Shown piece after piece: positions 36,187 through 39,102 of a stretch of 64,000 nt of DNA. The DNA comes from Natronosalvus vescus (GTDB taxonomy: Archaea > Halobacteriota > Halobacteria > Halobacteriales > Natrialbaceae), in the NCBI RefSeq assembly GCF_023973145.1, contig NZ_CP099546.1, positions 806,001 through 870,000 of the forward strand, in the 5' to 3' direction. Numbering within the stretch: position 1 is the stretch's first letter; each line of letters starts with the position of its first letter. The position numbers and the translations under genes were made by a program. A model generated the notes under the pieces. The model worked only from the letters and a program-made list of their open reading frames with translations, did not search any database and was not told the DNA's origin.

Positions 36187-36750
36187 TCACTCGCCGTCCC
36201 ACTTGATCGAACAGCCCTGGGACGGCTTCCACTCGAGGTCGACGTCCTCGCCGGCGAGGACGGCGTCGATGGCCTCGCGAATGTGGAATCGCGTCGGCTC
36301 GTCGTCGGGGTTCAGGGCGTCGTCGAGGCGACCCTGGTAGACGAGGCGGAACTCCTCGTCGTCGCACTCGAACAGGAACGGGTCGGGCGTACAGACCGCA
36401 CCGTAGGCCGTCGCCACCGCCTGGGTGGAATCGCGGAGGTAGGCGTCGTAGGAGATCGTTCCATCCTCGACGAGTTCCTGCATCGCCGAGAAGGAGTCCT
36501 CGGGGTACTCATCGGCGTCGTTCGGGTTGATGCCGACGACGGCGACGTCGTCGTACTCCGCCGCCAACTCGTTGAGCAGGTCGAACTTCGCCTTCGCGTA
36601 CGGGCAGTGATTGCAGGTGAACACGACCAGCAGTGCCTCGTTGTCGGCGAACGACGAGAGCGTGTAGGTTTCACCGTCGACGCCCTCGAGTGCGAAACTG
36701 GGGGCGGCGTCGCCAGCCTCGAGTTCGGACTCGGACTCTTGTAGTACCAT
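36187..36750 (-). CDS. Thioredoxin-fold (redoxin-like) protein
   Basis: This 187-residue cytosolic protein has an AhpC/TSA-like thioredoxin fold and the motif [10 protein letters not shown] (Cys46 and Cys49, CNHC). That CxxC-P-Y form belongs to a distinct redoxin-domain group, not to classical thioredoxin. A second pair of cysteines (AVCTPDPF and FECDD) follows the fold. I chose the ATG at 36750. It is divergent from the thrS leader, 145 bases away. The partner is unknown. Confidence 0.85.
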
Positions 36751-36862
36751 GCCGACCGCTACTGGACGTTTCCCCTTAAGCGGTGTGTTCTCGGCCAACG
36801 AGAGAGGCGGGCGGCCACTGTTGGACGGCGGCGACGTCACCGACTCGCGCACCATCACAACG

Positions 36863-36870
36863 TTTTTATC
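36863..36870 (+). promoter_or_regulatory. TATA box of the thrS leader transcript
   Basis: TTTTTATC is centred about 30 bases before the ATG at 36896. This predicts transcription starting within a few bases of that ATG, about 250 bases ahead of thrS. Confidence 0.5.
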
Positions 36871-36895
36871 CCACTCGAGACTACCCCGAGTTACG

Positions 36896-36937
36896 ATGGT
36901 AGGTGTCTGCTTTACAGGGCCGTCCGCCCGCTTTTAA
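36896..36937 (+). CDS. Candidate 13-codon leader ORF of thrS
   Basis: A short open frame, [13 protein letters not shown], begins at the predicted transcription start of the thrS transcript and ends 203 bases before thrS. It contains one threonine codon (ACA). Its first codons lie in the left arm of an inverted repeat whose right arm follows its stop. It could be an attenuator peptide or a chance frame in a structured RNA leader. Ribosome profiling or conservation would decide. Confidence 0.4.
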
Positions 36938-36983
36938 TCCCCACCTACCGCTTGCTGTGTCGGAACGAACCCGTCAGCGAGCG
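36898..36983 (+). promoter_or_regulatory. Structured leader RNA ahead of thrS (two stems)
   Basis: Stem 1 pairs GGTAGGTG (36898-36905) with CACCTACC (36942-36949), and encloses a small inner stem GGGC/GCCC (36917-36920 with 36926-36929). Stem 2 pairs CGCTTGCTG (36949-36957) with CAGCGAGCG (36975-36983), nine pairs including one G-U. The arms are adjacent, sharing base 36949, so stems 1 and 2 could compete at their junction. Confidence 0.45.
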
Positions 36984-37090
36984 GTGTACGCGACGCCCGC
37001 GGGATCGACCGAGAGGCGCCGCTTCTCCACCGTTGATCCAGTCACACGAGGACACCACCCGAACGAATCCACCGACCGATAGCACGCGCC

Positions 37091-37133
37091 ACAGACCGCA
37101 CACACCACACAGACCGCACACACCGCACACACC
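37091..37133 (+). repeat. CA-rich direct repeat just before thrS
   Basis: The 16-base unit ACAGACCGCACACACC occurs at 37091-37106 and again at 37109-37124, with a shorter GCACACACC after it. The thrS ATG follows at 37141. The segment is nearly free of G on the plus strand and should be unstructured. Confidence 0.75.
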
Positions 37134-37140
37134 AGATACA

Positions 37141-39102
37141 ATGTCAGAACCCGACTCATCAGACGCAGAATCAGCACAGTCACCGATCGCCGTCGTCCTC
37201 CCGGACGGGTCCGAACTCGAGGTCGGCCCCGACGCCACCGTCGAGGACTGCGCCTACGCAATCGGCCCCGGCCTCGGCCGCGACACGATCGCCGGCAAAC
37301 TCGACGGCGAACTCGTCGCTAAAGAGGAACCCGCCTATGATGGCGCGAAACTCGAGATCGTCACCGACCAGTCAAACGAGTACCTCGACGTCCTCCGACA
37401 CTCCGCGGCCCACTGTCTCGCCCAGGCCGTCGAGCGCCACTTCGACGACGTAAAACTCGCTATCGGCCCGCCAACGGAGGAGGGCTTTTACTACGATTTC
37501 GACGATCTCGACGTCGACGAGAGTGACTTCGCGGCCCTCGAGGCTGAGATCGAGGCCATCATCGACGCCGACTACGAGATCGAACGCGAGGAGGTTTCGA
37601 TCGAAGAAGCCGAGGAACGGCTGGCCGACGAACCCTACAAACTCGAGTTGCTCGAGGAGTTAGCCGAGGAGGGTGAGTCGGTCACCTTCTACAGCCAGGG
37701 TGAGTGGGAGGATCTTTGTGCCGGCCCACACGTCGACTCGACGGGCGAGATCGGCGTCGTCAAACTGCTCGAGATCGCCGGTGCCTACTGGCGCGGGGAC
37801 GAGGAGAACCCGATGCAGACCCGGATTTACGGAACGGCGTTCGAGGACGAGAGCGACCTCGAGGCCTACCTCACGCGTCGCGAGGAGGCCAAAGAGCGCG
37901 ACCACCGCAAGATCGGCAACGAGATGGATTTGTTCTCGATCCAGGACGTGACGGGGCCGGGGCTGCCGCTGTATCACCCGCCGGGGAAGACGATCCTCAA
38001 GGAACTCGAGGCGTTCGTCGAGGAGATCAACGAGGACGCGGGCTACGACTACGTCGAGACGCCTCACGTTTTCAAGACGAAGCTCTGGGAGCGATCGGGT
38101 CACTACGAGAACTACGCCGACGACATGTTCCTCTTCGAGGTGGGCGACGACGAGTTCGGCCTCAAGCCGATGAACTGTCCGGGCCACGCCGCCATCTTCC
38201 AGGATCACTCCTGGAGCTATCGCGACCTCCCGATCCGGTACGCCGAGAACGGCAAGGTCTACCGGAAGGAACAGCGCGGCGAACTCTCCGGGCTCTCCCG
38301 CGTCTGGGCGTTCACGATCGACGACGGCCACCTGTTCATCCGCCCCGACCAGATCGAACAGGAGGTCGAAGCGATCATGGACGCCATCGACGAGGTGCTC
38401 TCGACGTTCGACCTCGAGTACGAGGTCGCGCTCGCGACCCGGCCGGAGAAGTCGGTTGGCTCGGACGAGATCTGGGAGCGTGCGGAGTCACAACTCGAGA
38501 ACGTTCTCGAGAAACGTAACGTCGACTACGACCTCGAGGCCGGTGACGGCGCGTTCTACGGACCGAAGATCGACTACGCCTTCAAAGACGCCATCGGGCG
38601 TAGCTGGGACGGGCCCACGGTGCAACTCGACTTCAACATGCCCGAACGCTTCGACCTCGACTACGTCGGGAAGGACAACGACGAGCACAAGCCGGTGATG
38701 ATCCACCGGGCGCTGTACGGCAGCTACGAGCGCTTCTTCATGATGCTCATCGAGCACTACGAGGGGAACTTCCCGTTCTGGCTCGCCCCCGAGCAGGTAC
38801 GCGTCCTCCCGATCTCGGACGCCAACCTCGGCTACGCCCACCGCGTCGCCAACGAGTTCGACGACTTCCGCATCGAGGTCGACCACCGCGACAGCACGCT
38901 CGAGCGCAAGATCCGGGCGGCTCACGACGATCGCGTCCCGTACCAGATCATCGTCGGTGACAACGAGGAGGAGGCGGGTACCATCTCGGTTCGCGACCGC
39001 TTCGAGGCCCAGGAGTACGACGTCTCGATCGACGAATTCAGCGCCCACCTTGAGGCCGAGCGCGACGAGAAACGCTCGGAACCGGATTTCCTGGCCGACT
39101 GA
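37141..39102 (+). CDS. thrS: Threonyl-tRNA synthetase, bacterial-type editing domain
   Basis: It attaches threonine to tRNA-Thr. The 653 residues comprise a TGS domain (about 17-76) and an N2 editing domain with HSAAH at 87-91 plus the later [10 protein letters not shown]. The catalytic core has motif 2 in [18 protein letters not shown], the zinc cysteine in PMNCPGHA, and a C-terminal anticodon-binding domain. This layout is the bacterial type, not the archaeal D-Tyr-deacylase-like type. The start at 37141 fits the TGS domain. It is preceded by a leader of about 245 bases with stems and a short ORF, so it may be regulated after initiation. Confidence 0.96.

Follow-up and report, generated by a model that had tools for sequence, protein, structure and literature searches.

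A probable leader-peptide attenuator ahead of the bacterial-type thrS of haloarchaea

Introduction

Why should a threonyl-tRNA synthetase gene be preceded by a promoter that lies far upstream of it and faces a reading frame of only 13 codons, and what could the RNA between the two do? The thrS gene of Natronosalvus vescus raises this question in a stretch of 64,000 nt (contig NZ_CP099546.1, positions 806,001 to 870,000), hereafter the window. Leader-peptide attenuation is a textbook bacterial mechanism; we argue, from comparison with other haloarchaea, that the thrS leader is probably such an attenuator, one with a leaderless start that senses Thr-tRNA(UGU), a device that is bacterial in principle and apparently unreported in archaea. 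The novelty claimed by the original prediction holds for the open-access literature, in which we found no report of attenuation or leader peptides in archaea (subscription papers lie mostly outside that coverage).

Results

The promoter faces a 13-codon uORF

The locus is laid out as follows, with the upstream open reading frame abbreviated to uORF:

36187-36741, minus strand: thioredoxin-like gene, the divergent neighbour; the region 36850-37140 separates it from thrS
36850-36869, plus strand: promoter, BRE-like CATCACAA plus TATA box TTTTTAT at 36863-36869, at a fixed distance from the uORF start
36896-36937, plus strand: leaderless uORF of 13 codons, ATG at 36896, stop codon TAA at 36935-36937; ATG, frame and stop are conserved
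36911-36916, plus strand: codon pair TTT ACA (Phe6-Thr7), invariant; ACA is the proposed sensing codon
37141-39102, plus strand: thrS, 653 aa; NCBIfam TIGR00418, 669.6 bits against a cutoff of 383.65

The product of thrS, the gene under the proposed control, is a bacterial-type threonyl-tRNA synthetase (ThrRS). The T-rich TATA box lies 278 nt upstream of the thrS ATG at 37141, and the uORF ATG 245 nt upstream. This arrangement of a distant TATA box facing a tiny ORF had been predicted, and both its coordinates and its spacing are borne out: the T-run begins at −32/−33 relative to the uORF ATG in 100 of 110 aligned leaders, a TATA-like box stands 20-38 nt upstream of that ATG in 105, and none of the 110 has such a box directly ahead of the thrS ATG. 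Judging by the promoter, the transcript would begin on the uORF ATG or only a few bases away from it.

A CA-rich repeat had also been described before the gene. It is present (37090-37134, an 18-nt unit in three overlapping direct copies), although it is no common element of the leaders, whose C/A-rich spacers differ. No tRNA or tRNA-like gene was found within the leader region, no Rfam family matched the leader even at E<=5, and no intrinsic terminator or U-tract was recognised on its plus strand.

The leader recurs ahead of bacterial-type thrS

More than 110 haloarchaeal genomes, drawn from several families, each carry one copy of the leader ahead of a bacterial-type thrS. A 121-nt stretch of leader that includes the uORF was matched in 86 of 342 genomes of the order, and a covariance model trained on 46 leaders matched 130 of 391 genomes of the class, again with one match per genome; except for the weakest model matches, which are not upstream of thrS, all checked loci lie immediately upstream of a bacterial-type thrS. 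A search allowing three mismatches found a single copy of the leader core in the source genome.

Weak model matches in five genomes (G322, G218, G032, G046 and G288) were rejected as thrS leaders; the true leader of G218 is L247, found by eye. L247 and L255 are the two leaders that the model scored as negative and that carry a rewritten version. Most of the other examined model-negative genomes with a bacterial-type thrS have a plain promoter beside the gene and lack a TTTACA uORF within the 330 nt inspected. The leader is missing from two same-family genomes (G199, locus L261; G342, locus L262), in which the only ThrRS found is of the archaeal type (28-30% identity); this suggests that the synthetase was replaced together with its leader.

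A Phe-Thr codon pair is invariant

The tiny leaderless ORF of the original prediction keeps its start, frame and stop among relatives. By alignment of the 110 leaders it is 10-18 codons long and always ends before thrS (97 TAA, 10 TGA and 3 TAG). Codons 12 and 13 vary mainly synonymously (CGN as CGC, CGT or CGA; TTY as TTC or TTT), and a long in-frame insertion inside the uORF of L219 and L220 preserves the ending RFTRA(F/V)ARF-stop. Because start, frame and stop are conserved, insertions stay in frame and changes are synonymous, we infer that the uORF is translated.

The proposed comparison of uORF codons gave a clear answer: TTT-ACA occupies codons 6-7 in 110 of 110 aligned leaders. The pair is also kept in four rewritten leaders (L219, L220, L247 and L255), and thus both where P1, the stem enclosing the uORF, is rewritten (L208, L247) and where the uORF is split by the long insertion. 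ACA is the rarest Thr codon, with a share of 1.5% in these thrS genes and of 3.9% in the window genes; TTT makes up 6% and 13% of Phe codons, respectively. Only one gene for tRNA-Thr(UGU) was found, and GGU and CGU isoacceptors are also present. As the invariant element is an in-frame Thr codon of the uORF, sensing by a stalled ribosome is indicated.

Two mutually exclusive helices involve the uORF

The structural elements are as follows:

36898-36905, plus strand: 5' arm of P1, GGTAGGTG, within the first codons of the uORF; 97% of cells are paired over 46 leaders
36942-36949, plus strand: 3' arm of P1, CACCTACC, just past the uORF stop; rewritten yet pairing in L208, L209 and L247
36917-36929, plus strand: predicted small hairpin GGGC-CGTCC-GCCC inside the uORF; 76.5% paired across leaders, in varying register
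36950-36982, plus strand: predicted stem-loop SL2 adjoining P1, with arms GCTTGCTG (36950-36957) and CAGCGAGC (36975-36982)
36902-36910, plus strand: codons 3-5, GGTGTCTGC, able to pair with a distal element (helix P2) instead of forming P1
37098-37106, plus strand: best local P2 partner, GCACACACC, with one mismatch and weak, inside the CA-rich repeat

Folding of the first 98 nt (36893-36990) returns exactly the P1 and SL2 stems (−36.6 kcal/mol, z = −2.33), the two stems of the original prediction, of which P1 is kept in relatives; the whole leader is not unusually stable (z = −1.49). Since folding alone is modest, conservation decides whether the leader is real, and it confirms a structured thrS leader with a uORF that is far from chance.

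The compensatory changes that had been proposed as a check were found for P1. Its 5' arm varies little over the 46 leaders; with 22 distinct arms, native duplexes reach −18.9 kcal/mol compared with −16.4 ± 0.5 kcal/mol for permuted pairings, a value attained in 0 of 20000 permutations when relatedness is ignored. The arms of L208 (CAGTAGGTG/CACCTACTG) and L247 (GTCGGTGATC/GATCACCGAC) are rewritten and still match, and P1 is, as judged from the aligned leaders, rebuilt by compensatory changes. SL2 is typical of the leader's own family, in whose alignment both arms change. In L201 (G093), an insertion with a long inverted repeat follows the uORF and separates the inner hairpin from the 3' arm of P1; the uORF and the P1 arm remain.

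P2 and P1 share codons 3-4 and are mutually exclusive. In relatives, a downstream GYRGAC(A/G)C element covaries with codons 3-5 (0 of 20000 permutations, relatedness ignored): the partner tracks codon 5 (CGC-GCG, TGC-GCA, CGT-ACG), and codons 3-5 score best among the 9-mers of the uORF. The distal partner is typically GCGGAC(A/G)C in the own family, about 95 nt from the ATG, and GCAGACACC in other families, about 75 nt away. P2 is weak in the window sequence and in TAC-type leaders, and the relatives' partners (GCGGACGCC, GCAGACACC) match better than the local one. Many own-family leaders (L024, L029, L031, L035 and others) have a third hairpin, GAACTTC-loop-GAAGTTC, after the distal element; it lies about 105-125 nt past the uORF start, and its loop varies in length, several of the differences being multiples of three.

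Spacer lengths favour multiples of three

The number of nucleotides from uORF to thrS is divisible by three in 86 of 110 leaders (30 of 47 distinct lengths), and 15 phase changes were counted on the ThrRS tree, compared with 28.6 ± 2.7 expected. The source genome is an exception, its 245 nt putting uORF and thrS in different frames (spacer 36938-37140). That the spacer extends ThrRS at its N terminus was considered and rejected: substitutions are spread evenly over the codon positions (50/45/49, vs. 117/98/507 in thrS), and the spacer of 7 of the 67 in-frame leaders contains an in-frame stop. Lacking codon-position bias, the spacer is not selected as protein. The frame bias is not predicted by the attenuator account.

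uORFs with cognate codons precede pheS and a second trpS

Other synthetase genes were screened for an ATG with a TATA-like box that opens 6-45 codons at most 400 nt upstream of the gene; the promoter pattern was widened for the final pheS/trpS screen, and the widened pattern was also applied to the controls. Ahead of pheS, 11 of 13 genomes, the own genome included, have a uORF that contains 3-5 Phe codons (as in ...SGFGFF...), lies 179-245 nt upstream and has its own TATA-like box, e.g. MASESHRRCVARQPAPRPGFGFFFAR:

L315 (own genome, near G000:C1:2130405, minus strand), L308, L309, L312, L313 and L316-L321: pheS uORF leaders

A second trpS is preceded by a uORF with 1-2 Trp codons in 4 of 5 genomes (e.g. 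MAFALEWRWRV...); the fifth leader, L330, has two Trp (MKPAPAWRWQPPS...) and missed the promoter rule. This second trpS is bacterial-like, and the uORFs of L325-L328 and L330 contain WRW or W plus a mostly conserved ADS motif. The ordinary archaeal trpS had no such uORF in 8 genomes, and control genes of eight other synthetases had no conserved uORF (3 scattered matches in 45 genes). Start mapping by dRNA-seq in Haloferax volcanii places uORFs before trpS HVO_A0127 (23 aa) and pheS HVO_2948 (26 aa), according to Table 2 of PMC4983044. Because Phe-codon uORFs stand before pheS and Trp-codon uORFs before the second trpS, the view that a stalled ribosome does the sensing at thrS is strengthened.

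Discussion

Comparison of sequences establishes the promoter position, the conservation of the uORF, the invariant Thr codon, P1, P2, the tie to bacterial-type thrS and the parallel uORFs; from these we infer translation of the uORF and stalling, with a presumed direction of the response and with either transcription or translation as the putative controlled step. A ribosome would begin leaderless on the 13-codon uORF once the 5' end emerges. When charged tRNA-Thr(UGU) is scarce, it would wait at codon 7, the rare ACA occupying the A site, and would there cover both the P1 5' arm (codons 1-4) and the P2 strand (codons 3-5), so that neither helix could form; both strands do lie under a ribosome placed at ACA, and its influence on them is our extrapolation. 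When Thr-tRNA is plentiful, the ribosome would reach the stop and leave, and P1 or P2 would close. The helix state would then set thrS expression, presumably higher under Thr-tRNA shortage.

How the helices might act on the gene differs in plausibility between leaders. No hairpin common to the leaders was found that sequesters the thrS start, and when folding was modelled with the ribosome placed on ACA or on the stop codon, no consistent change was seen there (accessibility 0.57 and 0.54, respectively, compared with 0.55 without a ribosome). L203 and L204 are the shortest leaders (72 nt); their P1 ends some 16 nt ahead of the thrS start, which makes translation control plausible in these two; the long leaders have more room. 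Besides these negative results and the weakness of P2 in the window, two features speak against an attenuator: bacterial attenuators usually repeat the codon and the thrS uORF has only one obligatory Thr codon, and the TTT before ACA is equally invariant.

UUUACA could, for that matter, be an RNA-binding motif. ThrRS would then bind the leader (UUUACA plus P1) and block its own translation as in E. coli, with the uORF incidental. Such autoregulation fits the occurrence of the leader only with bacterial-type ThrRS and the invariance of UUUACA outside the helices; we regard it as unlikely, because the uORF retains its start, frame and stop even where a long in-frame insertion interrupts it, and because cognate-codon uORFs also precede pheS and the second trpS. 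The proposal of an archaeal regulatory leader that mimics tRNA-Thr survives in part. The leader is structured, conserved and probably regulatory. The mimicry itself is not supported: the CGT triplet in the inner loop, noted as a Thr anticodon triplet that may be chance, occurs in only 36 of 110 leaders, no tRNA-like arm or hairpin is common to them all (P1 is, and mostly the inner hairpin), and what never varies is the in-frame Thr codon.

It is also conceivable, if rather improbable, that the uORF and P1 merely tune basal thrS expression through ribosome loading or stability of the mRNA 5' end, and that Thr is not sensed at all. A conserved promoter, uORF and 5' hairpin require no sensing, and the little predicted change at the thrS start agrees with such a constitutive role, which, however, leaves the invariance of a rare Thr codon and the cognate codons of the pheS and trpS uORFs unexplained.

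Direct binding of uncharged tRNA to the leader without a ribosome, as in a T-box, appears very improbable. UUACA is complementary to the anticodon of tRNA-Thr(UGU) and the two following A residues of its loop, and the two tRNA-Thr genes read have anticodon loops TTNGTAA; however, the absence of an Rfam match includes the T-box, and the kept frame and start of the uORF would be unneeded. That GC-rich stems and a random short ORF merely happen to lie behind an ordinary promoter, as the modest whole-leader folding score might allow, is refuted by conservation and covariation and has next to no probability left.

Leader-peptide attenuation is thus the reading we favour for thrS. We further consider it fairly likely that haloarchaea control synthetase genes by ribosome stalling on leaderless cognate-codon leader peptides (Thr for thrS, Phe for pheS, Trp for the second trpS), with a further uORF-gene frame link at thrS. 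If this is true, the link between translation and gene control in archaea becomes testable in genetically tractable strains, and the leader offers a natural reporter of tRNA charging.

Among known systems, the E. coli thrS operator mediates autoregulation by ThrRS through true anticodon mimicry of tRNA-Thr and has no uORF. It shares with the haloarchaeal leader a structured region before thrS of the same enzyme type; the latter, in contrast, has a uORF and no conserved anticodon-like loop. In bacteria, the leader-peptide attenuators that serve synthetase or amino-acid operons (E. coli pheM-pheST, trpL, thrL) likewise place a short cognate-codon ORF inside mutually exclusive helices ahead of the gene, whereas the thrS leader has no recognised U-tract terminator, a single Thr codon, a leaderless start and an archaeal host. 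Haloferax volcanii has uORFs in long 5'-UTRs, found upstream of trpS and pheS on mapped transcripts (Babski et al. 2016, PMC4983044); the table in that paper lists ORFs of 15-31 aa in leaders of 150-250 nt, without thrS, and the paper does not appear to propose attenuation. Mycobacteria offer the closest analogue, leaderless short ORFs of poly-cysteine type (Canestrari et al. 2020), which, as far as they are described in PMC9031893, act as attenuators. Those ORFs are bacterial and have contiguous cysteine codons, and the thrS leader is archaeal with one invariant rare ACA; its two exclusive stems covary across haloarchaeal families. On that description, both systems would have a short ORF that starts leaderless at the 5' end and contains codons of the amino acid being sensed, and in both the speed of the ribosome would control the downstream gene.
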